64,000 bases of DNA, taken from assembly GCA_903813345.2 (NCBI GenBank), contig CAIIXF020000007.1:21379564-21443563 (forward strand), in the 5' to 3' direction. A program made the position numbers and the translations under genes. The DNA comes from Owenia fusiformis (taxonomy: Eukaryota > Annelida > Polychaeta > Sabellida > Oweniidae). This document shows, piece after piece, positions 27,001 through 54,000 of this stretch. Each line of letters opens with the position of its first letter. The first letter of the stretch is position 1. The notes beneath the pieces were generated by a model. That model did no database searches. It worked only from the letters and a program-made list of their open reading frames with translations, and was not told where the DNA came from.

Positions 27001-30000
27001 AACAAATCATAACCTCTCCTTCAAGTCATACATTATATCATTTTAGGATTCAACATTGTAACTTTGATGGTAGCGATGTGCAGACTTTAACAAGGCATAC
27101 ATTTGGAATTGCACATCCATTTGGAATTGCTGTCTACAAAGGTAATATGCATATTACATTAAGGTAGTTTTGCATGAAGAACATGTTTATGGTTATGATT
27201 ACAAATAGTAAAAATTATTTTAATATGTACGCTAATGGTAAAATATACAGCTCAGAATCGTAATATTGCAGCTAAATGTTTTATTGACATTACCAAAAGT
27301 AAATGTTCTGATTGTTTTATTTATTTTATTCAAAGTTAAGATTCCTGATTGTATACAGTACAACAAATGTTTATTTCTTTACTTGTAATGTTGTTGAAGT
27401 ATGAATGATAGCAATGTTTTAATAGAAGTGAGTGAGTTTATTAGTTCCAAAATAATGCTGTTCTATTCATGATACAATTTAGATGCTATGGTATACTAGT
27501 AAGTCAAATTAAATTCCATGAGTGAAAACACAATCTTAATTTACTGTCATTTATGTCTAACATAGATGTTAAAAAAAAGTACCTAATAACAAATAGTAGT
27601 GTTTGATTTATTTGTTATTCTGTTGTCAGTTACTTGTGTTTTTTTAATTTGACACTATTTTAGAAACTATCTTAATGTCCTGCAATCCCACCTACAATTT
27701 TAACATAGAAAGTTCAATCTGTTAAATGTCCATCCTCAAAACCAGGTATATGTAACTCATTAGTCTCCTTTCATGCGATGAAAGGGATAATGTGATTTGG
27801 ATGTTGAGACTGCTATCAGGAGATGTTCAAATCAATGTTCTGATAAGAGATTTAGAGTAATACTCCGCCACATTTTAGGATTTGTCTACTTTTTGGATTG
27901 GAGGATATCATCTCTGATGAGGTTACCCTTATCCAACCCTGGCGAAGATGTTGTACACTTACGTAAAGGCTTGTATAGGCCTTATGAGGTCAGAGTTTAT
28001 GACATAGATGACCAGGAAACACCTAGTAAGCATGTTATTTATTATGGTTGACTGATGCTACTCAGGATGAGGCATAGCAGGGGATGGCTTGAATAGTAAA
28101 CTCAATATATCCTTTCAACATTTTTGTCATGTTGAGTTTCAAACAATACAATTAGTGTTCTTCAAAAAGTAAATTCCCCAGTATTACATAAAATCTGAAA
28201 TTATTGAGTTCAATTTATCCATCTTATGCTATGTCCTTCCACTAGGCATCCGTCAGCCTTTATTGTTTTGATCTTTATGATTAACATTCTACTTTCACTA
28301 CAGGATATATCTACTTTACTGACTGGCGAATGGAAGCCCTTTCAAGGATACAGATGACAGACACATCAAAACAAGTCCTGATGAGAAAAGGCATAAAACA
28401 GATGTACAATGCCAAGATCTATGATATAAATGAGCAAATATTCAATAGTGAGATACTTAATGTTTTAGCATGGATGGATGCCCCATTTGAGTGTTTGTCA
28501 TAGCATGGATCTTAACCTTGTTACATATATTACCCCAAAGTCCATTGTTTTACTAAATAGGTCGAATCGCATGCAAAAGTGGTATGTTCCCCAAGTAGTA
28601 CCCCAGAGGTACAAACATAACATAGAAATAAAATAATACATGTACATATGCTGTATTATTACAATCTTGAACAACTGGGTTGTCAGTATCAAAACAGTCA
28701 TAGTTTTGATCCCCACTTCTGGTATCACATGCAGGGCAAGCCTTGACCACAGTTTGTATCAATACAACATTAAAATAGACTTTAACGACTTTGGTATATA
28801 CAACTTTGAGAGACAATTTATTTTGTTGAAATCAATATTTCCAAACTGAATTTGGCATGTGAAAATTAATAAAAAATCCTTTTTATATATTTATACAGTT
28901 CCCATTACAATAGACATTGCCACTTTTTCTTCCTAAAGTGGTACATAAAATAGGGTTTAGTAAATCAGAAGGAACAGTTCAATTTACATTTGCATTCAAT
29001 AACAAAAGGTATAACATTTAGCAATTAATAAAAAAAAGTCAATAAGTGACTCTTAATGTTTGAATGGATTAATGTCATCTACCTCTACCTGCCTGCATTT
29101 AGTATCCCAGCAACCTTGCATACAATTAGACCTCATCAGTGCTCTTTATTTAAAGGTAGAATCTGAGGCAGAAAGAGCGCAATTCAATTTCAGAATCTTT
29201 TATGAAAAAATCATCTTATCTCTGTTAACTATGCCATTGGTTTATTCTACTTCTAGTGTAAAAATGTCTTAAATAATCTTTTTTTTGTGGTGATGCAGTT
29301 CCCTTATCAACTACCATTTCTCCTTTGCAGTCTGTACATTTAGCTTAAGTGTATCATTTGGCAATGTCCTTATTCGGACCTGATTCTTAAAACCTTTTTA
29401 AAGCCATGTTTGAATTCCTTTAACCTCAAAGCATATACGATAGGATTGAATCCTGAATTAAATACAGCAAGAATGAAACAAAATAACCTAATATTGTCCT
29501 GCGCTTCATTTTGAAGTGCACTGTAAAACTGAAAACCATACACCTGAAATATGATAACTATAAAAAGTGGCAACCAACATATCAAAAAGAAGCCTATTAC
29601 AATTATTGCGGTTTTAAGTACCCTAAGATTGATTTTGAAATTGTCAGTGGTGTTATTGTTTGGAATTGGATGATTCTCTGTCCTTCTACTCTGTTGTTTT
29701 ACCACATGGAGTATTCTAATGTATGCAACAGTTAGGAACATACATATCATGATACCAACAGGGCCATAGGTGTAATGTAAGATCCTGGGATTTTCAGCCT
29801 CTCCAATGCAATACAGATACCCTCCAGAGTCCATAAAAACCTTCCATTCAATTATAGCTATAAGAACTATTATGATAACACCACACCAAAGAGAAATTGA
29901 TATTGTTTTGGCTTTTCTCAAGTCCATGATTTTGGGGTATTGCAGAGGCCAGATTATGGCAATGTACCTGTCTATAGTAACAGCAACTAGCAACGATAAT

Positions 30001-33000
30001 GACATCAGCATTGATGTGCATATCAATGCATTTGAAAGGGCACTCACAAAAAATCCCCTCATAGTAAACAATGTAAGTTGTGTAACTGCTATCTGTTGTG
30101 GCATCATACATCCAATTATAAAATCAGCAATTGAAAGTTGTACAATGAAAAAGTTTGTAACTGTTCTCAATGGAGAATGTTTCAAATAAGCCATAATGAC
30201 AAGCAAATTACCTCCACAGATCCAAAAGAAAAGTATTGCTTCAATTAAATATTGTATGTATTTACTCATAGGTTCACTGTCCAGATCAAACTCTGATTTG
30301 TTCCCATGTACAAGAAGCTCCTCATATTCCTTCCAGTATCTTAAAGATGGTTTTGACATTTTGGTGAGCAAAGTCACTTTGTCTATTTCTGAATCTTTTA
30401 ATTTTGGTGTTGTATTATATCTATCAATTCCGATGGTTATCTTAATCCATTTCTTTCTGGCATTATTTTGGCATAATCAAAATCCTGTCTCATATAATAT
30501 CATATTGCTTTACTTCTTCATTTTTTCAGTATCCAAGAACATTTTCTCCAATGTACATATATAGGTTTTCTGCAAATTCTTTTTGTTCAAGTAATCTCTG
30601 GCTTGTTGCCTAAACAAATACTGTACCATAATAAGGACGTCAAAAATCATTGAAATGATGGAAGGATAGTGAGGAAAGGGGATAAGTCAAAACTAGTAAC
30701 AGAAATAATGTACAACATGACAATTATGATATACACACCATTCCCAAGGGAAAATCCCCAGTATGATAAATGATGCAGTTACTAAAGGGAACATTGTGAA
30801 GCACAATAAAACAAACTTTAGCATCTCAACTAATAATACACAGCCAATCTGCAACAGTATCGTGCGGTACTGTTTTGTTTACGGTACTGTATGGTACAGT
30901 GAAATATGGTACTTTATGGTACCTAAAATGGTAGACTAAAATGGTACAAATCACTATTGTGAACAGTGTTCGGCATCATACTCAAGTAGTACTGTACGGT
31001 ACCATACTCTTAATGTACGGTATGGTACTGTGATTTTACTGTGGGGATTTGGGGTGTATTATATAGGAAGAGAATGACCTTCCCTCCCTTAACATTTGAA
31101 AATGATTATCATGATATGTAATGGTCCCTTGGTATGTCTGCTATAGCTAAGTAATCAGTTGTTTAGTAGTTGATAGAACATTTAGTTTTTGTCTTGCATG
31201 TAATGGTCCATTAACTAAAAGGTTTATATTTACATTTGCATTATACCCAGAAATTAAAATAGGGTGGCCCAAAAGGTTGGCCTCATATTACGTCAAATAA
31301 CTTCTAAACCATGCATTCTCCAATCTGGGTGCCAGAAAGTAGAACTCAAATTATTATGTTAATAAAATTTGTCATGATGCTGTGGACAAATAGAAATCAG
31401 GCATACTCTATGGTTATAGCATGGGAGTTGAGATTATTGGTCCCAGTTTTTTGGGGTCACCCTTTACATGCATGTACAACACATTACCTCTTCTTTGACT
31501 GTCATTATAAAAAAGATTTTATGAAGTAGATCAAACTTAAAGGCACACTCTACTTCACAGGGGATAAAATGGTTCAAAAAAGTTTTCTTTTGGCTTTAGA
31601 GTCGCTTTCATGGTTTAAAACCTTCTCTGGTTGTTCTATTTAAAACATTTTTTGTTATTTTAAAAAAAAAATTTAAAACATTAAAAATAGAAATCATAGT
31701 AAACATTTGAAGATTATTTAGAAGCATTTAAAATCGAATCCACGGCAAAATTTGAAATAATTAAAATATTCCCACACCAACCTTAGAGAAAACACTTCCG
31801 GTTTTATAATCAATGATTTTATCGATCAACAAATATTTTTATGAATTTGTCAGATATCTGCTGAAATATGGTATGTGTTGATTGTTATTTACAAAATAGG
31901 TAGGGTAAAGAATATGTCAAAGTCATTAGATCTTGTCCCAGAAGCAATATTTTGTTAATTTTATCGCCCGGAATTCCTTTAAACACTGATCACTGTTGGA
32001 TCATATATGCAAACCTTCAATTATACGTTATAAGGAATAGTATTACATACCCAGCATTTGTATTGAAGTCAATGGAGCTGAAGGTTGGCTATATATTCCT
32101 GTATAGCCGCCAAACCTTTTACCATGACAATCTTATGACGTCATCGGGACGTCATGTTTCATTTCTTCCTAATTTCACTCGCACACAGACACGTGGCATC
32201 ATTGATATAACGTAACCATGATATAAAAGTATGTAATACAACAGTTATGTCCGTATCATTGAATATATGCCTTCGGTCTGTCGTAATATAACCCTCGCAA
32301 GCTCGGGCTATATTGGTGACAGACCTTAGGCATATATTCAATGATAGGGACATAACTGCTAATTATGTCCCTCTCTCTTCTCATGAAAGTTTTCAAATTC
32401 TGTAATCCGATTGTCTTTTATGAAAGACTATCGATATAGTTACATTGTGAAACTCAGTTGAAGTATAACCAGAGCCATATATGTATTTATCCCATACTTG
32501 GACGTGTTGCAGGTACATAAAGCCGGTTTGTAAAAACTTATATTTTCATCAGCGGGCAGATATAGCTTTACATCCCGCTCTGAGCGGGCAGATATAGTAT
32601 ATCTGCCCGCTACGTCATAATCGCCGCTCACATATTTGTTCATAATTTGTAACGTTCGCGTAATGACTGTAAACGACAATGATGAAAACACAGACAATCT
32701 GGATCAATTTGATAGTTTAAAAAAGGGAAGGAGCATCCAATTAATCAATCAAAATAAATGTGGGAATATTTGAGGGAACAGGAAAATCCGCCCACGGCCA
32801 AGAAAACAAAACTGGACATGAATATTCTAAAATATTTCCACGATTGAACAATGTGAACCAAATGACCAAGATTGGTATGGGATAAACATATTATCCTATA
32901 GTCGGTTCAGGATATTGGGATTATCCCTTGGCCAATATTATATATTTTCCCTCGGGACCTGCGGCCCTCGGGCAAATATGTTATATTTGCCTCGGGATAA

Positions 33001-36000
33001 TCCCAATATCCTGAACCTCATATAGGATAATCTCTATATATTAACCTATGTATTTTACTGTCACTATAACTCCTGCATGTATGCTTTTGTATCTTTATTC
33101 AATTTTGAATGTGCATCTATCCCAAAAGCATTTGTCGAATAAACCCTTTGAAAAATTATCTTATTATAAGTTGTTCATTTATTACAACAATAGTGAAACT
33201 ACAAATGTACATTGTTGTTATGATTTTTAATCATCTTACACATATTATGCTATAGTTACATTGTAAAATGTAATCATTTTCATCACACTTTGGAAATGTG
33301 CTATATTGCCATTGTCTTTTGATGTTGGGTTGGTTAGACATCAGGAGGGTGGGCGGTTGCCACATGAATCTTCAACTTATATATTATAAAACTTATTTTC
33401 TTTTATTTACTTATTGCCATGGTTATATCATGAAACTTAATCAATAGTGAAAGTACAAATTTACATTGTTTATATGAGTATTGCCACGGTTACATCACAA
33501 AACTAAATCATATTTTCAGATTCACATCCATGTGCACTAAACAATGGACACTGCAGTCATTTTTGTTTCCCAGTCGCAGTTGGGTCATCTTTGAGTCAGT
33601 ATACTCTAACACGGCGTCATTGTGGATGCCCTTACGGGATGAAGATAGACACAAGTGACCAGCGCACTTGTATAGCAAATCCTGATGAGCAACCTCAACC
33701 TGCGTGTGCTAGATACTACTTTACATGCGATAATCAGCAGTGTATAAGTCGACGCTACAAATGCGATGGAGACACTGATTGTTTAGACGGATCTGATGAA
33801 CGAAATTGTACTTTAGCAAGTGAGTACTAACATTATACTTCTGAAGTGTTTTGTGCATAAGTTTCAAGCATTTTTCAGTCTTATCTAGGTTTATTCATCA
33901 TTTAGAAAACATCAATCATATAAGTGTTAAAAAATGATCTCATGTAAGAATATATCTTTTTGCATTGTATTTTCTACAATTGTCCAATTTTGAAGTTCAT
34001 TGCTTCATATTCACTATTGTTTTACATTAATATAGTAAATATTGTTGAAATGTTGACCTTAAATCTTGATTTATAGGCTGTAGATCAAACCAATGGAGAT
34101 GCAACTCTGGGCAATGTATCTCAAGATATTTAAAATGTGACAAACGTAACAATTGTCGGGATGGCTCTGATGAGCTAAACTGCCGTAAGTCCATATAAGG
34201 CATGACCACGTGTGATGTCATGCATGGTAGCGCATTTTCAATCCCCAATTTTATTCCCTGTCCTTTCCCCAATTTTCTCATGAGTCACCCATTTAAAGAA
34301 ATCCAGAGAGTGCCTTTGAATGTGTAGTCGTCAACTAATATGGCCATTGTAGCACGGGAAACATAAAAAAGAACCAAGACAGACCAACAAAGAAAATAGG
34401 AGGAAGAATATCAAGCTTTACATCTGCAAGAGAACAAACAAAACTAACAAAACCACTGTAGGTTTAACTGAAGAAATATTTCTGTTTTGTAGGAATCTAC
34501 TATAATCAATGAACAATTTGATGGTCTCTCAGTGGTATGCCAAATTGTGATATGCAATTGTAAATCATTTTGCATATCTCTCAGAATTACTTGCAGAGAT
34601 GAAGATCACAATTGGGCTACTTTTGAGGCATTGAACTGTACCTGAATCAAGTGCTGATATATGATCTAAGCATTTATTTTACTGTCTATTATTACACATG
34701 ACACCATTCTGTCATCAGCCACAGTAAACCCACAATGATATATGGTTTATTCACATTTCTCAAATATAGCCTGTCCATACGATTGGCAATGGCGTTGCAA
34801 CTCAGGCCAATGTATATGGAATGGGGGCAGATGTGACATGTTTAAATGGCGCCATTGCAAGGATGGTTCAGATGAGGCAGATTGTCGTAAGTGGAGGCAC
34901 AATTGAGATGATATATACCTGGGTCCTTGATGCTGATTAAACAAGGATCCCTTTGATTTAAGGAGTGCTTGGTGGTGGGAGCTGACCTACATGAAGTGCA
35001 TTCCTTGAAGCATGAATTTTATCATAAAAGATCTACTATTTATTCGGCTGTATCATGTCAAAAAATCTGAAAATGAATTCACAGTACACATTTCTTGAAG
35101 ATTTTGAGAGCATTCTCTCTTTGTGCACATTTCATATGCTATTCAAGTTCTTAGGTCCTTAAATGTGTCAAAATGAGTGCAGGAGAATAAAGTGATATCA
35201 TGTTTCCATAGCTCCAAAGTAAATTGTTTCAAATCTTCAAGGAATGATCAACTTTGGATGTGGGTCAGCCTTAAAGTAATAATTACACTTGATTCCATTA
35301 ATTGCACTTGTGATTTAGGGACACGATCAATATGTGTAAATAATGTGCACTCACAAACAAAATTATTTACGTTTTACAAGACCGATTTGTTCCAAAAATT
35401 TTATCAAACATTGCTTAGTAATTAAAAAGTAACATGTTGAATTGTGTTTGTGAATGCATTGATACATATTGATAAAGTCCTTGAGGAAGATTAATAATTG
35501 TCTAGCAGTGTACAGCACCAACACATTCAGCTTTGAAACAGCACAGATCAACAAAATTGATTCAAATGATTTAATCACTATCTTTCAATGCCAGGGAGAT
35601 GTTCATTTCACCAATTTGCGTGTGATGGTAGACACAGATGCATCCCCTTGGAATGGAGATGTGATGGGGATAACGACTGTGGTGACAATTCTGATGAGAT
35701 TGACTGTGGTAGGTCAAGGTCACTGATTGGATTTAATGCCACATTAATTAATGGAGTAGGAACACTACCTTTTGACGATTGCAGATGATTCTATAGTTTT
35801 GATGTTGGCGAGATTCTTTGATATTGCAAATGTAGCTTTCATGGCCTTTTATGGAAGTTTATGAAAGTTTGATTATGAAATGAATGTTTCAAGCTGGCTA
35901 TTTTAAAGGCAGAAAATCATCTCTTGTATTAAGAGTGTAGATGGAGTGACACTCTCAAGAAGGGTAGTGTCAAATATGATGTTTCACAGCTAGGATAAAA

Positions 36001-39000
36001 GTATCAGAAATGCTCTTCTAGAGGCAGATTGTTGGTATAAATAATGCATTTAATGGTCATATATTGTCCAATTGGAATTTTATACAGAGTTTTCTGGATC
36101 ACTTTTGATGCCTTTATCCAGGCTGAGTTATTTGCTTGTTTATGTTGCTTATATTTACAGGTTAGAATATGTAACTTTCCATGTCATTTCACTTATATTT
36201 CCACCCTCTTTCCTCCCTCGTAATTGCTTTTCATGTTTTCACCAATGTTTATACAGTAAACACTTATTATCCTGTTTCACTTTAAAAATGATACATGCTC
36301 AGAAAAACTAAAATTAAAAGAATTGTAAAAAGTATAAGGACTATAGCTATGACACTTTCTGAAAGATTCAGAGAGATAACTATTGATTAATAAATAAGTA
36401 GTTTAACCATGGCTTTATGTGATCTCTAAATAACAGAGAGTTGGAAGAGTGGATCAGGATAATATATGTTCATGTAACCTTTACATATGTATAGCACTTA
36501 AGTTGTTCCTTTGGGTTCCATGATCAACTGTATCAGTAGACCAGTCTAGTGATTCACACCATCCAATCTATCACACCATCACACCATTTATGATGTCATC
36601 CTTACAGTTTCAGGGCAGAAATTGGATTTTAAAAAGTTATTATTTTTTGTTTACAAACTTTGCTGCATGCATAGTTTGACATCATAAGCAATTATTTGGT
36701 TCACCAAAATGGGTCAGGATTTATTGGAAGGGTCTTATCCACCACAAAATATAGATAATATAATAATTAAATCTGCATGAACCTTTTTTCTTGCCCTCCC
36801 AGCATGCCCAGAAGGCACTTTCCGCTGTCCCATAAGCCACTGCATTTTAAACACTTCACTATGCAATGGGAGAGTTGACTGCAAAGATGGGTCTGATGAA
36901 CTCTCTGTGAATTGTTGTGAGTAAACTTACAAGTAGGAGTTTCTGGGAAAAGGTTCTGGTGCCGGTGAAGGGGACAGTGTATCCAAATAGATAGATAGTA
37001 ACTAACCAGTTAGTACTATAGTAATAGATATGGGTTCATTTTGCTTAAGTGAATGCTTTATTTTATCATCATCTTATAATACAGTAGTTTTGATGCATCC
37101 ATCCTTTTCTATTGGGAATAGGTCATAACTTACAGCTTCTAAATGTGTGCATTATTCTAACATCCATTTTTGAATTTATTTATTTACATTATTGTACAGG
37201 TTTGATACATTCCTCCAATTGTATTCATCATCCTTATCTTTCTCTTTTAATATTAACTTATTAGGGATGGAATCCTGTCAGTATCTGTTGTAGAAGAAGC
37301 AAAGTTCATTTTGTTTGAGGGGAGAGAGAGGAGGGGGAGGAGCAATGAAAATTTCATTGTTGAAGAATCTTCACTTATGGAACTGGCAAACCAGAATATT
37401 GGTTATATTTGCAAGATGCTCCTGTTGATATTAAAATTAACTTTGTTTCTCTACAACTGTCAGCATTTGGACACAATCTCTTCAACTCTATGTGCTCTTA
37501 TGCTCTTGTTTGAATTTAGCTTTGAATTATAACTCGTATTACTTCTATGTTGTGTTAGTAAATTTCATTTTACATTAACATTATTCATACAAGCAGGACT
37601 GCTTGTTAAAAGTAAAGTATACCATTTATTTATACCAAAATTGCCTTAAAAGCAATGAGTTAATCATATCGAAATAATCTTGCAAGTAAAATAAAAACTG
37701 TTTTTTAATGTTTGTCTCATTTTTCTTAAGATATAGAAAATATAATTCACAGCCTATGTAACAACATAACATTTTGATAGAACACAAATAGAGGCAACAT
37801 TTGGGAAATGAAAAAACTTTTTATTTATTAAATATCTTTATTTCCTTCAGCCCCCAGAAACTGCAGCAGATGGCAGCATACGTGCGCTAATGGCAATTGT
37901 GTGACCCGTGGCGCCCTCTGTGATACGGTGAATGATTGTGGAGATGGCTCTGATGAAGGAGAACATTGCTGTAAATATACTTTGTATTTTCGGAAAAATT
38001 AATTAGCCTAATTTCATGTTGTGATAAAATTCACTTGGTTTTAATTTTCTTAAAAATAGTTGAACAAACTGTAGTTCATTAAAATATAATTCTATATTAT
38101 TGAAGAGAGTTTTTTTTAGTATCTAGGATATAATGAAATAAAATGTTATATATATACAATACCCAAATTGAGACGATGTTTACAGGCAGAACATGCTGAT
38201 GTCTTTAATTTGTACATGTAGTGTGTATGTTTGATCATCAACCATAGATAAATGAGCACATAGAGCAGTTAATGTTAGTGAATGTATGCAAATTGAGCTA
38301 TGTGCCTTATGTGCAGAATGTTTGATTCTACCAGCTGCATAGCACACTCAGAGAGAATATATTCCCCAACATCAACATCCAACATGTTCAAGGGTCTTTA
38401 TTATGATAATATGATTATGATGAGTCCATATTGGATATGAACAAAACAATTAAACTTGAATTGAATGTTTTGGATATAAGTCAAAAAGCTTCAGTGCTGC
38501 ATGTCCATATTTGTTAATTGCCATGTTATACATAGTGGAGAAGACATGTCCAACGTATGGGCATAGATGTAGAAGTGGCCAGTGTCTGTTTACAAGTCGC
38601 TATGTCTGCAATGGGGCCATCAACTGCAAAGATGCCTCTGATGAAGATAACTGTCCTGAAATGAGTTGTAAGAGTTGGGAGTTTTCTTGTAAAGTGATCA
38701 AAGGGTGCATTTCTAAGAGGTTGACATGTGATGGAATTCCCGATTGTCAAGATGGATCTGATGAGTTCAATTGTAGTAAGTTCTCATGTCAGCCATTTTC
38801 TTAAATGGCTGCGACCCGCTTGCATATGCCACCCATCTACTAGCACCATGTCATAATAGATGTAGTTGAATATTTTGCATTGTGCAGAACTAGGCTCACT
38901 TCTTTGATGTCATGGTGAAAAATGAAAAACTATAAAACTCCTCTATGAAAAATATCACCATGACGTCTTGGATAATGCCACATTTCCCAACCTCCCCCCT

Positions 39001-42000
39001 ATTGATGTAAGGTTTATTTCAGGTACCCCTAGCTGCCCAAAATTGAACAGAATTTCAGCAAGAGATGACATGTGTCCAGTATGTAATTTTGCATCTGATG
39101 AGAATCTACATGAACATGATTTTGGATTTTTATTCTTGATATTTTCCCAGTTGCAAGGACATGTGGACCTCGTCAATTTCGCTGCAACTCAGGTGCATGT
39201 ATCCCACAATTCTGGGAGTGCAATTCCCGTGCTGATTGCTCCGATGGGTCAGATGAGTACCCAGAATGCTCTGTGCGTAACTGTTCACGGTGGTATTTCC
39301 AGTGCACTCGGGAGAGACAGTGCATATATAGGGGCTACAGGTGTAATGGCCATGCTGAATGCAATGATGGTTCTGACGAAGAAAATTGTCGTAAGTGCTG
39401 TGTAATCCAGCGGCACACCCTTGTTGACATGCAAAAGATTATTCTCAAAATGTTCAGCTTTATTGGTATTTGTGTCAGAGAAAAACTCTCTGATTAAACC
39501 GGTATAATTTTCTGAACTTATTTTGAAAATGTCTTCAATTATGCTCCTGTTGTGTCAACAGCTAAATGAACAGTTACAGTGTTCACTGGCAGCTTTAAAT
39601 GTTATTAAAATGATGTTTTAATTAATTTGCAGATTCAAGATATGCATGATATAATTTTTCTGCCGATTAATAAGTTTCATAAACATCCTCACCTAAGAAG
39701 CCCAGCGTAAAATTTAATTTGAAGATATAAATTGAGCTTTTGACTTAGATGAAATCAGGTACTTAATCAGTTCTGATCTGAAAAATGTTTGAAGAGCTTT
39801 TTAGGGAATGATTTTTCTCAAACATTCATTTTCTTGGAAATAAAATTCAAACCTCACTGAATCTTTTATTTCAAAAATCACAATTTGGTATATTTGTTTT
39901 GTAACATTGAATCAAAGGATACAAACAGACAGTGGCTCTATGGTGATCAAAGTTTGTGTCTCTATTTGACTGAAAATGCAGAGACCTGGAAAATGACCTG
40001 GATACTTCAACAAATAATCCAAGCATGCAGCAATGCCAGAGACATATGCCTATGATTAAACCAACCAATTGCATGCTGGCTTTCTATTAATCAATAAATG
40101 AACCAATGACATGCTTGCTTGCTCTTGATTGACAGCTGACACTACTTGTGACCCTACACTGCAGTTCCAATGTGGCAATGGGCTTTGCATTCCCCTCCAA
40201 TGGCAATGTGATGGCAATCCCGACTGTTATGATGCCTCAGATGAGGCTAACTGTCCTCCTAAAAACTGCTCATCCTACTACCTCTTTGCCTGCAAATCAC
40301 AGCAGCAATGTGTTGCTAAAACACGAGTATGTGATTCAGTATTTGATTGTGAAGACTACAGTGACGAAGCTAACTGTTGTAAGTCTATGTACTGTGATTG
40401 TCACAAACATGTTATTGCATCTCTTAGGGAAGCCATCAATAGTCTTACAATCTCAACTAGTTAAGCAAAGCCATGTTTAAACATGAAAATTGATTTGATA
40501 ACATATATTTATGTATTAGTCTTTATGGCTCTGGAATAGCATAGTGCACTGTTTATCTATTGACAGCTTCCCTTGAAATTATCTATTTCAATACTATACA
40601 TGTATAATTAATAATGACTCTGTGACACCTTGGCTAACTTGGTCAAAGTTAAACACTAATCCGTTGTCTCAAAACTTCTTATTTAAGTGTTTATAAATCT
40701 ATCATGAATACAGTAGACAAAATGATATTTATTTTAAGTTTTCAACAATTGGTGTTGTTATTCTTTGAATCAAGCCATTTTCTCAATTTTTACATATTTA
40801 CATGCTTTGTGTATATTTTAATATTAGAAAATAATGCAAATGCATTTGATTTACATATTGCTTCTAAAGGGCCTAGGCTCATACCACTATTGGTCCAATG
40901 GCATGTTTTAAAGTTTTTTTATTAAGTTGTGAACTAGGAAATGAAGTCAAAAAGTAGTATTATACTTTCTTTGGTGTTAATTTGCCTCACCATATTTTTG
41001 ATCCTGGCAGTGCCATTGGAACACCATATGTACTAGTGAAACTGTGTTTTAGTTAATTACTTATTAATAAGTTGCTTTATAGCCACACCTGCTCCTGGTG
41101 GATGCAGACCAGATGAGTTCCAATGTACCACTGTGCAGGGATGTATCCGCCAAAGTTGGAAATGTGATGGCCATGAGGATTGCGAAGATGGCTCGGATGA
41201 ACCTGATACATGTCGTAAGTGATCCATTATGTTAAATCCTGATAGATATGAATAAAGTAATGAATATACATTTAGCAAACACTGAACTTATCCATATTGT
41301 AATCTACATAGGGTGATCAATAAATAAGGTAAAAGTATCTGGCATTTCTTCAGATTTTACCCAATCCTCATAAAATTTGCACAGAATAATGTTTAAACAT
41401 CATTGAATTTATTTATCAAGTTACAGATCAAAGTGATGTGATTGGTTGAAGTTATATGTCCTTGTATATACATTATACTGATCACAGTACAGATCTAAAT
41501 GTAATACTGACCGCCAACTGTAGCTTAATCTTACCATGGAGAACAACTCATTTGTGCACAATCTTGTACCCTACAAATATTCATCATTTTAGGTCAAAGA
41601 ACATGTTCAAGCAACTTTTTCCAGTGTGGGAATGGACGTTGCATTTGGAAACGTTATATGTGTGATGGAGATGATGATTGTGGGGATGGAACTGATGAAG
41701 ATCAAGCTTTGACATGTCGTAAGTTGACTATATTATCAAACATGCATATTAATGAGTTACGTTGATGTAAATGTGGATGTTCTGTCCAATGTTATATCAC
41801 ACATGATGCCATTGTATAATAGTTTTATTCAAAGAGGGATAGATGGGACTTATTTGACACCCTATCATAAAACCAAGCAGTAATTGTATTGATGCCTTTA
41901 TATGGTTGCTTTGATCAGTTATTTAGTTTTACTTACATACAGAATCTTTTTGTCGTTTTTTATTTGCCCTTGATGATAGATGATTAGAAAAAGGATTATT

Positions 42001-45000
42001 TGTTATTTGTAGCTCCTCCACCATTCAGGTGTAGCTGGTCTCAGTGGAAATGTCCAGGAGACTATAGAGTCTGTATCAATAGGACCCAGGTCTGTGATGG
42101 GAACCCTGACTGCCCTGAAGGACTGGATGAGAGTCCTGTGTGCAGTAAGTGTTATTAAAATGGCTCACACTCACAATTTATACCTGGTAGAAGGAGGATT
42201 GCCATACTAAAGGTCCTCCATAAAACCTTGCTTGGATGAGCAGACCAAAATGAGTGTATCAGGCCATCTATATATGGCCATAGATTGCAAATGGTGAATT
42301 GTGTGACTGGAATTTAACCAATTGCAACACAGCTTTTCAGTTGAAATGTCATTAAAATACTTTGTTACTCTGAATTTACATGCAAGATAACCTCCAATCA
42401 ATGTTTATGTTGTTTCCAGATGAGCAATCCTGCTATACCTCTAACCGTGGTGGGTGCAACCAGATCTGCCGCAACACACCATTTGGTGCTACATGTTTTT
42501 GTAGGCGGGGCTACATCCTTAATGACACAACAACTTGTATAGGTATGTCATGATGGGTAAAGGGGACTGGGGTTGATTTATGTCTAGATCCTAGCACATG
42601 GTAGTCTTGTTTCTTCAAAATCGAATGAGAATCAGACCATTGGAACTCCTTTCTGAAGGAAGTTTAGCCATAAAGGTAAAATGATGTAGAGGAGGAGGTC
42701 GGTAAGAATGTATCATGGGTTGTGCCTTTTGTTGCTATAGCAACGATTATTCAATAACCAATCATAGTTGAGATGAGATGCAGTCAAATGATCTGGAAAA
42801 ATGAGAATAATATATCTTATATATTATTATGTCACCAACAGAAGTTGTGACATATTGTTATAGTCACCACCTTTTTGTGGACAACTGTGTTTGTAACAAC
42901 TGGGAAGTCTTGGGAAAATATATTTCTTAATGGCACATTGCCCCTTTAAAATTAATCATCAAGAATTGAGTGCAAAAAATGATAACCATGACAACTTTAT
43001 AGTAATGTGCATGTTATTTAATGTTTTAGATCAGAATGAGTGTGCTGAGTTCAAGTGTAGCCAGACCTGCTTTAATACCAAAGGTTCTTTCTATTGTGGC
43101 TGTGACGAGGGTTACAGCTTAATGCCCGATAGGACAACATGTAAAGCTGCAAGTAAGTAAAACATCTCACCATTTATTGTTCATATGTTAAAAATAGCAA
43201 GGTTAGAGTTGGGCGTCCACGACTTTTGGATCACCCCTCGTACAATCTTTTTCGATTTGCCATCTTAGCCAATAGAATGCTAAAATATTGACCAATCAGA
43301 TACATTGTTACAATCCCCCAATCAAATGTTATGTATTGTTAGATAGCATAGTATCATTATAGTAATCATATATTTGTTTTTATTTTTTTAAGATGGCACT
43401 GCTTTCATTCTTGCCGCATCATTCCGTGGAGTGATACGTAGCAATACAGCACTAAATCGCTTCAGTTCAACACCTATACGAGGGTTTATACATTCAATGA
43501 CATACGATAATGTGGAAGACAAAGTCTACTACACAAAATATGTTAGATCAACCAGCATGAGGCAGATGCAGATCTTTAGCGCATTGTCCAATGGAACAAA
43601 CCCTCAGATGGTATGTTTATTAGTATTTATCATTCAAAATTAAAGGAGTAAAATGTCCAATGCAGTCCATTTGATAATTTGTATTGTATTAAGTGATCAA
43701 GATCTTCTTACATAGAACAGTTCAAATACGTTTTTGAACCTATGAGCAACTTTGGGGACTTCATCCCCAATGTCCCCTAGTACTACCTTTATCAGTGATA
43801 TAAGACACCAACTTCTTTCTTGTGCCCACCCTACCATACCACTCAGGTCATTCTGTGTTTTGATATAAAGTGTGACTGAAATAAAGGGACTTGTTGTTTT
43901 GTTTATATTCTGGATTCTTTTTCATACAGATCATTGAGCATGGTGTTTTTGCCAATGCCCTGGCAGTGGATTGGATAGGACGCAACTTGTATTGGCTTGA
44001 CTCACTTGGAGACACTATCAATGTTGCTACCCTAGATGGAACCTACCGCACCATGCTGTTCAAAGAAAATGCTACCAGGATCAGGGGCCTTGCTCTTGAC
44101 CCAAGAGAAGAGTGAGTGATATCCAAGAAGATTTTATATATGAATTTTATTCAGTTTTAACACATAATTTTTTACCATTTGCAAAAGTTTGACATAATTG
44201 AGATACTTAGAGTGTGATCATTCTTATTTTCAATTAGAGTATGTCATCATGATAAAACTACATGTATTTGGATCTGCAATTTGATGTTTTAAGATCATAC
44301 AGTCTTTATTAGCTAGAAATATGCCTTGTTTAAATAGTTCATTGAGAAAAGTTAAGAAATCATTAAGATCGTATTGGTTAGATGATTTACAATTACTAAT
44401 ATCTCCATCACAAGTAGAAAACCTACAGTAGCTCACCTCTCGCTTACATGTCTTTTTTATTTTTTATTTTTATTTAAGTCTCATGTATTCTTGTACTCAG
44501 ATCTATTCATAACTACATACCAGTATTACTTTCCCATTGACAATACATTGCTTGAAATAAAAAATCTTAAGTTTGATGCGTTTTATTTTAGTGCGCGTCT
44601 GATGTTCTGGGGTGACTATGGGCAGAATCCAGCCATAATGGCCGCTGGCATGGATGGAAGCAACAGACGCATTGTAACCACTGAAAAGGTTTATTACCCA
44701 GTTTCCGTGACAATTGACCTTCCTACAAGAAGAGTCTATTTTATGGATTACCACTCGGAAGAAATTGCATTCGTGAATTATGATGGAACTGGACGTCATC
44801 AAGTAATCGAGAGTGATTTGGTAAGTTAGCAGCAAGGCATACTGTATATAACATGGTTTCATGTAATGAGTAATTTATGAGATGAGGCTAATGCTGAACT
44901 TTTGACTAGAGATGTCTTCTACGTTGCATCATTGAATAAACAAAAAAATACAAAATTCAATCCTCTATTTTTAAAGGCCTCCTGGATTTATACGTCCTCT

Positions 45001-48000
45001 CAATAGGCTACAAGTGTATATCATTAGTTAAGGTAGTTATACACTGTCAAAAGATGGCACCCTGTTATAGCTGAGTGTATACCTACCTAAAGTGTAAAGA
45101 CATATTTTTCTTTTTTAATGGACCATGGGAGGCTGGAGGAGAAAGGTAAACTGGTGTTGCTTTTGTCATTTTTGCACTTATGTTTTATGCAGAAATAACC
45201 ATTTGAGTGTTGATTTGCATATGTATACATGTGTATTTTGTTGTGTAGGATTATTAGCTCACATGGTGAGCTTTTGCAATCACTCACTTGTCCGTCTGTC
45301 TGTCCGTCCATCTGTCCGTCCGTCAACAATAGTGGCACGTTTTAAAATCTCTGTCGATAGGATTCCTGTTTTAAGTTATTTCTGTTCAACATCAATACAG
45401 AAAACTCCCCTATGACTCCTGGTTCAAAAGCTCGCCTATTTTCAAAATGGCCGCCACTTTTGTCTCGCGAAATTCACTTTTGACTAGGGGTGAGACGACA
45501 ACCCGATGAGTCGAGGACTCGCGGGTTTGGGGCTTCGAGTCGAGTCGAATCGAGTCGAAGTTGATGAATCGAATCATTTTCGAGTTGAGAAAAAAATTCG
45601 AAAATATAAAAAAATTCAGAAAAATACTGTCAATATGCATGTTTTTACTCGATATTGCGTTGAATATATAAGTTTCAATGACTTGGATATGCTTGTATTA
45701 AATTCTTATATTGTATGTACACATAAATGAAAGAATATATGTAATAAAATCAGAATAAACTTACGACGAATTGTGTTTGTTTATATTTCCAGCTTTCCAC
45801 CATTGACGCATTAAAAATACGAACGGTCAAAAGCGATGTTGTTCGCACTTTATCTGACTCGAAACGGATTCGAAACTCGAATCGTCATTTTCTGACTCGA
45901 ATCGGATTTTTTCGACTCGTCTCACCCCTACTTTTGACCCATTTGTTTTAAAACCTCTGTCGATAGGATTCCCGTTTTAAGTTATTTCTGTTCAACATCA
46001 ATACAGAGAACTCCCCTATGACTCCTGGTTCAAAAGCTCGCCTATTTTCAAAATGGCCGTCACTTTTGTCTCGCGAAATTCACTTTTGACCCATTTGTTT
46101 TAAAACCTCTGTCGATAGGATTCCCGTTTTAAGTTATTTCTGTTCAACATCAATACAGAGAACTCCCCTATGACTCTTGGTTCAAAAGCTCGCCTATTTT
46201 CAAAATGGCCGTCACTTTTGTCTCGCGAAATTCACTTTTGACCCATTTCCTAGCTTTACAAATAATTTCAGGTGTCCTTCACTGTAAAAATCCATGTCAA
46301 TGTAAAGGGTAGATATATGTGATAATATTGTTACAAAAAATCAGCGAAAATTATATCCATTTTTTTATTTTCAGCCATTTTAGTTAACATTGATTTGTCT
46401 ATCTGACTCGCGAAATCCACTTTCCGTCAATAACAGTGGCACGTTTTAAAACCTCTGTCGATAGGATTCCTGTTTTAAGTTATTTCTGTTCAACATCAAT
46501 ACAGAAAACTCCCCTATGACTCCTGGTTCAAAAGCTCGCCTATTTTCAAAATGGCCGCCATTTTTGTCTCGCGAAATTCACTTTTGACCCATTTCCTAGC
46601 TTTACAAATAATTTCAAGTGTCCTACATTGTAAAAATCCATGTCAATGTAAAGAGTAGATGTATGAAATAATTTTGTTACGAAAAATCAGCGAAAAATTA
46701 TATCCATTTTTTTATTTTCAGCTATTTTAGTTAACATTGATTTGTTCATCTCTCTCGCAAAATCCACTTTTGGACCATTTACCTTAAACCCTCTGTCGAT
46801 AGGATTTCCGTTTTAAGTTAATTTTGTTCAACATCAATACAAAAAACTCTCCTATGACTCTTGGTTCAAAAGCTCGCCTATTTTCAAAATGGTCGCCATT
46901 CTTGTTCCGCGAAATTCACTTTTTGCCCATTTCCTAGCTTTACAAATAATTCCAGCTGTCCTGCATTGTAAAAAGCTGTGTCACTGTAAAGAGTAGTTGT
47001 ATGAAATAATTTTGTTACAAAAAATCGGCAAAATATTATATCTGTTTTTTTATTTCCAGCCATTTTAGTTAACATTGATTTGTCCATCTGTCTTGCGAAA
47101 TCCTCTTTTGAACCATTTGCTTAAAACCTCTGTCGATAGGATTCCAGTTTCACATTATTTTCGTTCAACATCAATACAAAAAAACTCCCCTATGACTCCT
47201 GGTTCAAAAGCTTGCCTGATTTCAAAATGGTCGCCATTTTTGTCTCGCGAAATTCAATTTTGGCCTATTTTCTAGCTTTACAAATAATTTCAGGTGTCTT
47301 GCATTGCAAAAAGCCATGTCACTGTAAAGAGTAGTTGTATGAAATAATTTTGTTCCAAATAATTGGCAAAAAATTATATCCGTTTTTTTTCTCAGCCATT
47401 TTACTTAACATCGATTTGTCCATCTGTCTCTCAGTCAGTCCAAAATAGTGGCAAGTGGCTTGAAATAATTTTGTTACAAAAAATCAGCAAAAAATTATAT
47501 CCGGTTTTTTCTGTCACCATGTGAGCCCAGTACCCACGGTACTAATTTTTATGCTTTTTACTGAAATCTTGCATTCTGATTGGTTGATAGTTGTCTGGTA
47601 AGCCAAACTATTGGCAACACATGGTCAAATATATGCTTTTATTTTATGCAAATCAGATGTATTTATTTTAAATATTCAATCATATACAGGCTGGCCAAAA
47701 ACATCCATATTTTTATTTGGCAATAACTTTTTCAATAATGCATATATTTTGAAAGTATTTTGATGGAGATGCAGGAATCAATTTTACAAGTGCTTATGAA
47801 ATGGGATCAATACAATTAAGTGGTTTCTGAATTAGATGGAGAAAGATAAAGAAAGGCTGGTACAGCATAAATAAAACTAAAAGTGATTGGGAAAATTGGC
47901 TTGTAAATGGAAACCTATTCAGAGGTCTTAGTTGTGACAAGGAAGATCAACCTGGTGCTAGATTGTAAAACTTGCCCTTTCAATGTTGCTATCTTCCTGA

Positions 48001-51000
48001 CCAAAATAGAAGATTTGTGTTATTCTTTTTCACACAGAATTTGGCCAATCAGTTCTGTTTTCCTGGATGTAAAACTAAGAAATAGCACACTAAGAAATAT
48101 GGACATATTTTGGCCCACCTCGTATAATGTCTTATTATGTCACCACTCCAAAAGTGGTGACATATTGTTATGGTCTCCGTTTTTTTGCGACGGCGGTTGG
48201 CGTCCGGCGGTTGGTGGTTGGCGTCCTGCGGTTGGCGTCCGGCGTCTGTAACAATTTCTTACAACTTCCTATAACTTAACAAATACTGTTAAGACTGACT
48301 TCAATTTTTTTCTAAATCATCTACATGTTCTCAGAAGTTCAAATCTGACTTTAGATTTGACATTTGACCTTCAATGACCTTCTCAAGGTCAAAAAGGTCT
48401 TTTTTCAACTTGCTTCACATTGACTAAATTTTTTTTCAAAATCATCTACATGTTCTCAGAAATTCAAATCTGACTTTAGATTTGACATTTGACCTTCAAA
48501 TCTGACTTTAGATTTGACATTTGACCTTCAATGACCTCAAGGTCAAAAAAGGTCAAAAAGGTCTGTTTTCAACTTGCTTCAAATTGACTAAAATTTTTTT
48601 CAAAATCATCTACGTGTTCTCAGAAATTCAAATCTGACTTAAGATTTGACTTAAGATTTGACATTTGACCTTCAATGACCTTCTCAAGGTCAAAAAAGGT
48701 CAAAAAGGTCTGTTTTCAACTTGCTTCAAATTGACTAAAAAATTTTTTCAAAATCATCTACGTGTTCTCAGAAATTCAAATCTGACTTTAGATTCGACTT
48801 AAGATTTGACATTTGACCTTCAATGACCTTCTCAAAGTCAAAAAAGGTCAAAAAGGTCTTTTTTCAACTTGCTTCAAATTGACTAAATTTTTTTTTCAAA
48901 ATCATCTACATGTTCTCAGAAATTCAAATATGACTTAAGATTTGACATTTGACCTTCAATGACCTTCTCAAGGTCAAAAAAGGTCAAAAAGGTCTTTTTT
49001 CAACTTGCTTCAAATTGACTAATTTTTTTTTCAAAATCATCTACATGTTCTCAGAAATTCAAATCTGACTTTAGATTTGACATTTGACCTTTAATGACCT
49101 TCTCAAGGTCAAAAAAGGTCTGTTTTCAACTTGCTTCAAATTGACTAAAAAAAATTTTCAAAATCATCTACGTGTTCTCAGAAATTCAAATCTGTCTTTA
49201 GATTTGACATTTGACCTTTAATGACCTTCTCAAGGTCAAAAAAGGTCAAAAAGGTCTGTTTTCAACTTGCTTCAAATTGACTAAAAAAATTTTTCAAAAT
49301 CATCTACGTGTTCTCAGAAATTCAAATCTGACTTTAGATCTGACTTAAGATTTGACATTTGACCTTCAATGACCTTCTCAAAGTCAAAAAAGGTCAAAAA
49401 GGTCTTTTTTCAACTTGCTTCAAATTGACTAAATTTTTTTTTCAAAATCATCTACATGTTCTCAGAAATTCAAATCTGACTTTAGATTTGACATTTGACC
49501 TTCAATGACCTTCTCAATGTCAAAAAAGGTCAAAAAGGTATTTTTTCATCTTGCTTCAAATTGACTAATTTTTTTTTCAAAATCATCTACATGTTCTCAG
49601 AAATTCAAATATGACTTAAGATTTGACATTTGACCTTCAATGACCTTCTCAAGGTCAAAAAAGGTCAAAAAGGTCTTTTTTCAACTTGCTTCAAATTGAC
49701 TAAATTTTTTTTTCAAAATCATCTACATGTTCTCAGAAATTCAAATCTGACTTTAGATTTGACATTTGACCTTCAATGACCTTCTCAATGTCAAAAAAGG
49801 TCAAAAAGGTATTTTTTCATCTTGCTTCAAATTGACTAAATTTTTTTTCAAAATCATCTACATGTTCTCAGAAATTCAAATATGACTTAAGATTTGACAT
49901 TTGACCTTCAATGACCTTCTCAAGGTCAAAAAAGGTCAAAAAGGTCTTTTTTCAACTTGCTTCAAATTGACTAATTTTTTTTTTCAAAATCATCTACATG
50001 TTCTCAGAAATTCAAATCTGACTTTAGATTTGACATTTGACCTTTAATGACCTTCTCAAGGTCAAAAAAGGTCAAAAAGGTCTGTTTTCAACTTGCTTCA
50101 AATTGACCAAATTTTTTTTTCAAAATCATCTACATCTTTTCAGAAGTTCAAATTTGACTTTACAAGTTCTCAGAAATTCAAATCTGACTTAAGTTTGAAC
50201 TCATAATATTGTGAGCAACTAGGTGGTGACATTTTGTCATGTTAATGCCTTGTATAGATTCTGTCTAGAATCTGCTACCCCAAAATGAGTTTTATTGTCA
50301 GATGGAAAATCCTTTGAAAATAGTGATTTGAGTAAATATGTTCACTAGGATTTGCCATGTAGTTATCATGTGCTGCTTAAAATTTGTTTGCTTTATGGTT
50401 CATGTACATAATATTTACTTTCATGTTATTTTTAGATTAATTATCGTATTTTAAAACAAATGTGTCGAGTTGCATGCTGTCTTATGCTATATATATTGAG
50501 CTGAGATTCTACTTCATACAATATTATAGTAGGCTTAAATGTATTAAAAGAAAACTTTAAATAATTTCAATGTTAAAACTGTAAATTGTACAACAGTAAT
50601 CCCAAATAAGAGTGGTACAAACAGCAAAAATAATGTAAATAAGATACATTCAAGATTTCTGCTTTGCAATGAAGAATTTATGAAATGAAAATCAATAAAC
50701 ACTGAAGCATCCGCAGTGAATATTCCTGTTGGGAAAGTCGATTTACTTTTATCTGTTAAGATGGTGAAATGGCACAAGAGGACAGCCAAAATCTCAAATG
50801 TTTCATTCTTTCATTCATCAATTTTGATTAGTTTCTGAGAGATCCTAGAGGGGGCATCACTATCTTCGAGGACTTTGTTTATTGGGCTAACAAAGAGAAG
50901 GGCAGAAAGAGCAGTTTAAGACGGTGCAATAAATACACCTGTGAAGCTCAGAATATTATGAGCGCTAACACTGACTATCCTTCAGCTATGTTTATGGTAC

Positions 51001-54000
51001 ATCCTGCCCTCCAACCCAGTGGTGAGTTACCATGGCAACTGTTGTCATAGAGCTGGCATTGTGGTTCATGTGGCATGCTTCCTATGGTTTGAGTATTTGT
51101 ATGTTTCTTTCATATGTTTGGCACTAGATCCTATTTGCGACTGGTTTTATTTCATGGGATGGATGGAAAAGACTATTTCATTAATTATGTTAGAGTAATC
51201 ACCATGGCAAAGTTTATTTCCCACTTTTGTTATCTCGTATGGAGTTAACAAAATGGATTATGTATAGAATTTAGTGCAAGGCATTTGTTTTTACCCTTAA
51301 AACATATTGTCAATGTGTGTGTCTACCTGCATGACTGGATTACTACCTTGTAGTAATAATATCATAGTTGTCATTAATTAAAAACTGTGAAGTACTGTCG
51401 ATGCACCCAACGGCATAGTAGCATTTTTACTGTATGGAAAGGAACAATAATGACCTAAACTATGATATGGACCAAAAGGTGGTAATTCTAGCAAAAGATA
51501 TTATTTGAATGTATAGTATTTTTATTCAGCTATGAGTGTTGCTTCTTTTGCATGACTCTATGGTAAAACCGGGTATACTTATATAGTGTTTTTCCTTGTA
51601 GAACCATCTATTATTTGTCAACCTATTTGGGGATAATCTTGAAACTTTCTTCAAGAAATAAGTTGATCAAAGGATAGAACAACTATTTTGAGTTTTTTTA
51701 CTTGACTTCATGCCAATTATCCAGAAATTGCTTTCATTGGTAATGATTCTAAAAAGGGGAATGTCTAAAGAAATTGAAAATTCTATCCTTTGCTGCAACT
51801 ATGATAATGTTTTTAAGTAACTTTTAACACATAAACAGTAATGTAGGTGATGTTCTACTTTGTAGTTGGTACTCAACACCATATACTTTGCTGTACATCA
51901 TAATTGCTTGCTTTATTGTGAATATTTCGTAGAATTTTAGTACTCAGCTGTAGTATAGTAGTACAGCTGTAATATTTTAGTATACAGCTGTAGCATAGTA
52001 GTAAAACTGTAGTATTTTAGTATGCAGCTGTAGTATAGAAGTACAGCTGTAGTATTTTAATATACAGCTGTAGTGTTGTAGCACAGCTGTAGTATAGTAG
52101 TACAACTGTAGTATTTTAGTATACAGTTGTAGTATAGTAGTACAGCTATAGTATAGTAGTACAGCTATAGTATTGTCGCACATAGCTGCAGTGTTGTACA
52201 GTTTGAAGTGAGTTCTGAGAGACTGGGTGTCATTCTTTCAATCTTAGTTTTTTAAACAAAAGAAGCCATAATCTAAAAATAGGCAAGGCAAACTTATTAA
52301 ACCAAAAGAGAATAAAGTATTCTTATGGGACATACATTTCACAGTTTCAGCTGATAAATGCTAAAAAGTCACAGTCACAGCAAGTACAGTAAAAGTGAAA
52401 CACCTTTGGTACCTCTAAAAAGTTTTCCACTTAAACAGAGGTGTTCCACTTCTGCAGGTGTTCCACTTCACAGGTTTCACTGTACATGATTGTCTAGCCA
52501 TGGTCTACTCAAGTCAATAACTCACTTCAAACAAGAATTGAATAATGCATTTGAGATGCCTCTAAGGGTGTAAAACATTAAAAACATATCCTGTTGCAGT
52601 ATGTTTAACTATTATGCATGCCATTACCAACAGTTCCTGCGAAGCCCCTATAGCCTGCGAGTGTTTGAGGACAGGGTTTTCTGGGTTGGGCTGAGGAGAT
52701 GGGGTGAAATGAAGAGCTGTAATAAGTTTACATGTACAAATCAGACGCTTCATAGACATTGGTTATGGACTTTCGATTTTGAGATTATCCATCCAAGTAT
52801 CAAACCCATGGGTGAGTGGATGGCATCTGAATTGCCTGGAGGTGGTGGTGGAGGCACTTAATCAGGGGCTTGGGCTTGTCTGCCACAGAATTTGGGGCTA
52901 ATAAATACAAATAAGAAGGGTTGTAGGTTTTGCAATTTAGTGTAGGAATTTGCATGGTATTTTTTCAAAGAATTTATTTTTGAATTTACTCCGATGCAAA
53001 TAAAAATACAGATACACATAGTTGTGTTTAGCTCGTCTCGCGGCATTTTTAATACAATTATAATGTGTTATTTCATACATCTTGATTGTATTGTTTAATT
53101 TCGAATGATACTCTGAGAACCTCATTCCTGCAAAAATATGCAAACAATTTGAAATGTTTTAATATTGATTAGGATCCATCGTACACGTACATGCACTGTA
53201 TAATTAAACTAACACTTTTTCTGTGTACCTAATCAACATGCACTCTTTATTATAAGTTCAGCACAATACATTATAACACCTATTTGTTTTAATGTTGCAC
53301 ATACCAACTTATAATTTTGGTTTGCATGAAAAAATTGCCAAATTAGATATTTTGCCAAAATCCCAAAGAATACAAAAATAACAGAAATTCAACAATTACT
53401 ATAATTAAGAGAATAATCATTTATTGTACATAAGTTTAGTTGTATATACATAAATATTACAAATGTATCACATCCTAAAGGTATGAAAATTGTAAAGTAA
53501 AAAAGTCTAAATTGTCTTGATTTCCTGAGGCTCAAGTAATGCTTATTATATAAAACTATATTTAAATTTTCTGTAGCTGTCAATCCATGTGAAGACAATG
53601 GATGCAGTCACTTGTGTCTCCTGTCACCTGTTAGCACTAGTGGCTACACCTGTGCCTGCCCAATGGCCATGAAACTCGACTCTGATCAACTCAGCTGTGT
53701 CCAAGGTAAACTCAACTGATCTCTTGAATGCATTTTACAATGTATTAACCGCGTTATGTTGTTTCTCTTTCATTGGCATCGCTTTATTTTATATATACAG
53801 TAAGGTACTCTATGCATCATAACTTGTTTATTCAATAGTTGATTGCTTGCTGAAGATTGGGTTCAATGCCAAAATTCTTTAGGAATTTAAAAGAAGGTTC
53901 AAGAATTGTTGTTCGTTTTTATGAGCCTTAAAATATGTCTTCAGATCATACCGAGTTCTTACTCTATGGAAAAAATAACATGTATGTCCGTGGCATCACA

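Follow-up and report, generated by a model that had tools for sequence, protein, structure and literature searches.

Two alternative closing blades for propeller 3 of a megalin-class receptor, encoded by a tandem exon pair with a predicted mutually exclusive use

Introduction

Can a giant receptor of the low-density lipoprotein (LDL) receptor family exchange a whole propeller blade by splicing, and does the reading frame enforce the choice? This question is raised by two neighbouring exons, 34a and 34b, each of which can encode the last blade of propeller 3 (the number 34 comes from the original prediction's own numbering). Sequence comparisons and frame analysis support, with good confidence, the answer that 34a and 34b are an old tandem exon duplicate, probably retained as mutually exclusive exons, with the wrong products lost by frame shift and nonsense-mediated decay (NMD). 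Below, the host gene, the homology of the two exons, the reading-frame logic, a possible RNA switch and a further exon pair are discussed, followed by the alternative explanations and a comparison with known systems.

The host gene

The window, a 64,000-nt stretch of a 498 Mb animal genome (G000:C7:21379564-21443563), carries most of the gene for a giant LDL-receptor relative on its + strand. An exon model was built by dynamic programming; its codon scores come from training on 49 gene stretches, both exon pairs among them, and its splice matrices are simple ones. Its output comprises 70 exons between 12,987 and 74,092 (window plus 20 kb downstream). The model is rough: it leaves out both exons of the first alternative pair and misses two stretches (near 24050 and 24340) that were read as exons of propeller 1. 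The four exons that it places at 71.1-72.3 kb are doubtful, so that 66 exons are used for counts.

Inspection of the open reading frame (ORF) lists and the exon model reveals eight propellers, a membrane helix and an NPxY tail, although no last blade for propeller 8 could be placed in either source. The 3' part of the gene contains two EGF-like exons, the membrane helix and an FSNPMY tail. This overall architecture is common to LRP1 too. The first LDLa cluster counts seven repeats in LRP2 versus two in LRP1, and pattern searches ahead of propeller 1 detected no more than two LDLa repeats (12987-13618), and none in the 20 kb upstream of the window. When exons 33, 34a and 35 are joined and compared with the Protein Data Bank (PDB), the best matches are LRP2 chains at residues 1568-1742; the top domain is propeller 3 with 155 bits, the next domain reaching 91 bits, and this bears out the original placement of the blade in propeller 3. 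LRP1 propellers are absent among the PDB matches, so that LRP1 lies outside this comparison. Because of this and of the LRP1-like number of two LDLa repeats, the gene is labelled LRP2/megalin-class rather than LRP2 proper.

The second LDLa cluster (33520-42144) contains about 15 repeats as counted on the exon model; the corresponding cluster of mammalian LRP1 and LRP2 has 8. An array of many near-identical LDLa-like units is seen in or near another LDL-receptor relative (L006, about 1-1846; G000:C7:12825000-12826845). Further downstream in the gene studied here, near-identical tandem pieces of EGF-like exons occur (L001, about 7132-8168; G000:C7:21450695-21451731), which represent either a very recent duplication or an assembly artefact, unlike the old pair 34a/34b.

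Exons 34a and 34b encode homologous last blades

All exons around the pair lie on the + strand. Exon 33 (44592-44820, again in the original numbering), placed by the exon model and by its LRP2 match, belongs to propeller 3 and ends in phase 0. It is followed by exon 34a (50832-51021, 190 nt), identified by the exon model and an LRP2 match, an intervening intron of 1,612 nt (51022-52633) and exon 34b (52634-52811, 178 nt), identified by its LRP2 match. Exon 35 (53577-53705) starts in phase 1 and encodes an EGF-like domain. Either version of exon 34 spans the sixth blade, directly before the EGF-like domain. Both versions run from phase 0 to phase 1, all of their borders carry AG/GT, and their length difference of 12 nt is frame-neutral. 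The borders, lengths and phases originally given for the two exons are reproduced in this analysis, as are the shared motifs FED.V.W, CNK[YF]TC and HP...P.

The claim that the pair encodes two alignable blades in equal phases also holds, with 19 of 59 aligned residues being identical. The global alignment of the two peptides scores 82, compared to a maximum of 9 in 2,000 shuffles (z 11.2). When 34a is compared with the window's 1,484 six-frame ORFs of 25 codons or more, 34b ranks first after the self match (E 3.4e-6), and no further copy of either exon was found in this set. A genome search, which scores the best candidates only, returns 34a and 34b as each other's best non-self match (33% identity, E 0.016 and 0.005), and none of these candidates is closer to either exon than its partner. 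At the DNA level, a blastn alignment of the two exons does not exceed chance (best E 2). Identity at codon positions 1, 2 and 3 is 47, 56 and 37%, compared to about 26% by chance; a selection test of positions 1 and 2 against position 3 points in the expected direction but is not significant (p 0.08).

Each exon is recognizable by itself. Against the PDB set, 34a alone matches LRP2 with E 5.7e-13 and 34b alone with E 2.5e-12. In each of the four LRP2 sequences listed, 34a matches propeller 3 best; for 34b the best stretch is propeller 3 in two of the four and the last blade of another propeller in the other two. Structure predictions of the single exons yield four strands each at modest confidence (mean pLDDT 63 for 34a and 59 for 34b). 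A fold search with these models gave nothing at E 0.001 or better; the 34b model had a rat megalin chain on top (E 0.17), and the match list of the 34a model was uninformative.

The CNK[YF]TC motif contains a cysteine pair that the closing blades of propellers 1, 4 and 5 in the same gene lack. The simplest reading, drawn from few sequences, is that the duplication postdates the gain of this cysteine pair in the lineage.

Reading frame and predicted decay of wrong products

Inclusion of either 34a or 34b alone keeps the frame open through exon 35. When both are included, the seventh codon of the shifted reading is a TAG; it lies within 34b, with 158 nt left to the 34b/35 junction. When both are skipped, exon 35 is read from phase 0 and a TGA appears after 93 nt, with 33 nt of the exon remaining. 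Both stop codons had been predicted, and so had their consequence that only single inclusion preserves the frame; the present analysis agrees on each point. In the exon model, more exon junctions follow downstream of both premature stops. By the exon-junction rule, a premature stop with downstream junctions makes an mRNA a decay target, and the products of double inclusion and of double skipping should therefore both be subject to decay.

The pair had been described as having a built-in frame lock. The loss of frame behind this term is real, but it is generic to any phase-asymmetric exon duplicate and it is not absolute. The lock reflects the phase that the ancestral exon already had, as the duplication of any phase-asymmetric exon gives one, and 27 of the 66 model exons are asymmetric; it is accordingly less remarkable than its name implies. 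Furthermore, an AG at 52660-52661 would allow 34a to be joined in frame to a shortened 34b, with a very low acceptor score (-3.6).

Simple steric blocking between the two exons is excluded by the 1,612-nt intervening intron. Given this long intron and the AG/GT at all borders, a regulated choice combined with a frame-shift and decay filter remains as the probable mode of exclusion. In the proposed mechanism, a single ancestral exon of an LRP2/megalin-class gene would have been duplicated in tandem long ago, giving rise to 34a and 34b, so that propeller 3 could be closed by either of two different sixth blades. Splicing factors would choose one exon per transcript, perhaps aided by RNA pairing upstream of the acceptors, and NMD would clear transcripts containing both exons or none by virtue of their premature stops. 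The exchange of the blade may then alter the propeller surface that faces the ligand or the EGF-like domain.

A possible RNA switch upstream of the two acceptors

Duplex energies were calculated for six 250-nt intron segments in 15 pairs, with 100 shuffles each. The segments upstream of 34a and upstream of 34b form the best of the 15 pairs (z -3.65, none of 100 shuffles as strong); the segments downstream of 34b and downstream of exon 33 give z -2.06, with 1 of 100 shuffles as strong. Relative to shuffles, the 250-nt segments upstream of 34a and 34b reach z -4.13 in a further run, and none of 250 control pairs (110 + 140) of real acceptor sites is as strong. At 150 nt, z is -0.77 and 36 of 150 control pairs are as strong. 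The length of 250 nt was a first, arbitrary choice, and with nine lengths tried between 100 and 300 nt, z amounts to -2.90, -2.01, -0.60, 0.63, 0.43, -2.37, -4.15, -2.59 and -2.82, the complementarity being gone at 150-200 nt.

Within the longer predicted duplex, a candidate arm at 50791-50808 (+ strand), 24-41 nt before 34a, is complementary over 83% of its 18 nt to a candidate partner at 52540-52557 (+ strand), 77-94 nt before 34b. If formed, this helix would loop out 34a, mask its likely branch-point region and favour 34b. A competing set of pairings was not found in the introns around the two exons. An RNA switch for this pair is a possibility that the modelled energies neither establish nor reject.

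A first exon pair in propeller 2

The designation of 34a/34b as the second alternative pair proved apt, as another pair exists for propeller 2. Its copies at 27879-28025 (147 nt) and 28304-28447 (144 nt), both on the + strand and both running from phase 1 to phase 1, encode two versions of the second half of this propeller's last blade. They share 37% identity, and the first copy aligns to LRP2 residues 913-991. This pair is symmetric, and the frame therefore stays open with both copies or with neither; the frame lock is restricted to 34a/34b.

In a search with 43 query exons, the matches within 9 kb (E 0.01) include no neighbouring blade versions besides these two pairs; few LDLa exons from the second cluster onwards were among the queries, and the final blade of propeller 8 was not. 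In other LDL-receptor relatives, no adjacent last-blade pair is present among the matches listed from three 10-kb stretches (L005-L007), a weak negative as matches with four or more cysteines were excluded from this comparison. That both pairs affect last blades is a post-hoc observation.

The introns at 27142-33519 (6,378 nt) and 44821-50831 (6,011 nt) are two of the only three model introns longer than 3 kb, the median being 354 nt. These two long introns contain or directly precede the alternative pairs; the former includes the first pair, which the model omitted, and the latter is full of repeat arrays. Antisense within the former, following the first pair, lies an intronless ORF of 329 aa (29370-30359, - strand) that matches Pfam 7tm_1 (E 5.5e-43), the family of rhodopsin-like receptors.

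It seems about an even bet that two independent mutually exclusive pairs swap the closing blades of propellers 2 and 3, which would give four receptors with different propeller surfaces. The second pair would be policed by frame and perhaps switched by RNA, and the first would operate without a lock. If this is true, splicing would diversify giant endocytic receptors at their last blades, which lead directly into an EGF-like domain. Megalin-class receptors are usually treated as single broad-range receptors. If one gene yields receptors differing by a whole blade, tissues could use splicing to adjust ligand choice or the acid-dependent shape change. Two pairs in one gene offer a direct test of whether a last-blade swap alters binding, and a frame-locked and an unlocked pair can be compared within the same gene.

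Alternative explanations

The rival that survives best, although unlikely, holds that one exon, with 34b the likelier candidate, is a relic, dead or dying, that splicing never includes. The codon score of 34b is matched or undercut by only 4 of the 65 other exons (18 of 65 for 34a), and 34b and both exons of the first pair have codon scores among the lowest of the gene. By the simple splice matrix the acceptors are weak as well, that of 34a scoring below all 65 other exons and that of 34b above only 4. In addition, the exon model did not place the end of 34b at 52811: with 34a barred, it chose a donor at 52847, 36 nt further on. Position 52811 is retained as the end of 34b since its donor scores better (3.8 versus 0.1) and since it agrees with the end of 34a. 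Against a relic stand the open frame of 34b, which 59 random codons with the base composition of introns would show with a chance of about 1%, its frame-neutral length change, its similarity to LRP2 by itself and its high-scoring donor; the donors of 34a and 34b are equalled or exceeded in only 3 and 9 of the 65 other exons, respectively. The exon model totals are 816.8 with 34a, 813.5 with 34b (34a barred) and 807.4 with both barred, a gap of 9.4 units between the best model and the model lacking either exon; these preferences differ by few units, and the codon table was trained on 34a and 34b themselves.

Weak splice sites were also considered as a sign of regulation. This idea was dropped, as the low acceptor score of 34a is set against a high pyrimidine content (not exceeded in 57 of the 65 other exons), making the picture mixed.

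Somewhat less probable than a relic is a scenario in which both exons are used, and double inclusion or skipping serves as a regulated NMD off-switch rather than being cleared as error. The low acceptor scores would suit such a function, as would the fact that both non-single outcomes lead to premature stops with junctions further downstream, but an off-switch alone needs no full LRP2-like blade in each copy. An assembly or haplotype duplication artefact can be practically dismissed: nothing at 34a/34b speaks for it, the near-identical tandem pieces lying further downstream in the gene, and two exons whose DNA does not align beyond chance are neither two haplotypes nor one misassembled exon. 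The preferred reading remains an old exon duplicate kept for mutually exclusive use.

Comparison with known systems

In domain and blade, 34a and 34b match propeller 3 of LRP2/megalin (PDB 8em4, 9i3v and others), with CNK[YF]TC in the pair replacing ANKWHG in two aligned LRP2 sequences (8em4; 9i3v, human). Among the matches listed in literature searches, titles and abstracts contained no mutually exclusive exons in megalin or LDL-receptor relatives, most subscription papers lying outside this scope, and the excerpts of PMC10339998 and PMC9013439 hold nothing on megalin splicing.

Frame shift leading to decay is, according to the excerpted text of PMC5740500, an established way to enforce exon exclusivity, and the human catalogue described there accepts reads linking the two exons of a pair where using both would shift the frame. 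The human frame-locked pairs resemble 34a/34b in being similar neighbours in the same frame whose joint inclusion shifts it. The catalogue pairs are validated by splice-junction reads, whereas 34a/34b is known from sequence alone and resides in a megalin-class receptor (PMC5740500, in excerpt).

With the docking and selector clusters of Dscam, as far as the excerpt of PMC6071210 describes them, the pair shares tandem-duplicated exons and flanking introns that may be complementary. Unlike in Dscam-type clusters, no set of competing pairings was found around 34a/34b, and the single candidate depends strongly on the segment length chosen (PMC6071210). Exons 4a/4b of OGDH (PMC7969005, in excerpt) likewise form a set of two mutually exclusive exons, the exclusivity of 34a/34b being predicted. 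The OGDH exons have distant branch points and a restricted intron length, whereas 34a and 34b are separated by 1,612 nt and, with the nearest upstream AGs at 46 nt before the 34a acceptor and 34 nt before the 34b acceptor, give no hint of a distant branch point. Taken together, the splicing arrangement itself is already known, and what appears new here is such an exon pair in a megalin-class gene. Its main interest lies in the two last blades of one receptor being duplicated in the same manner.
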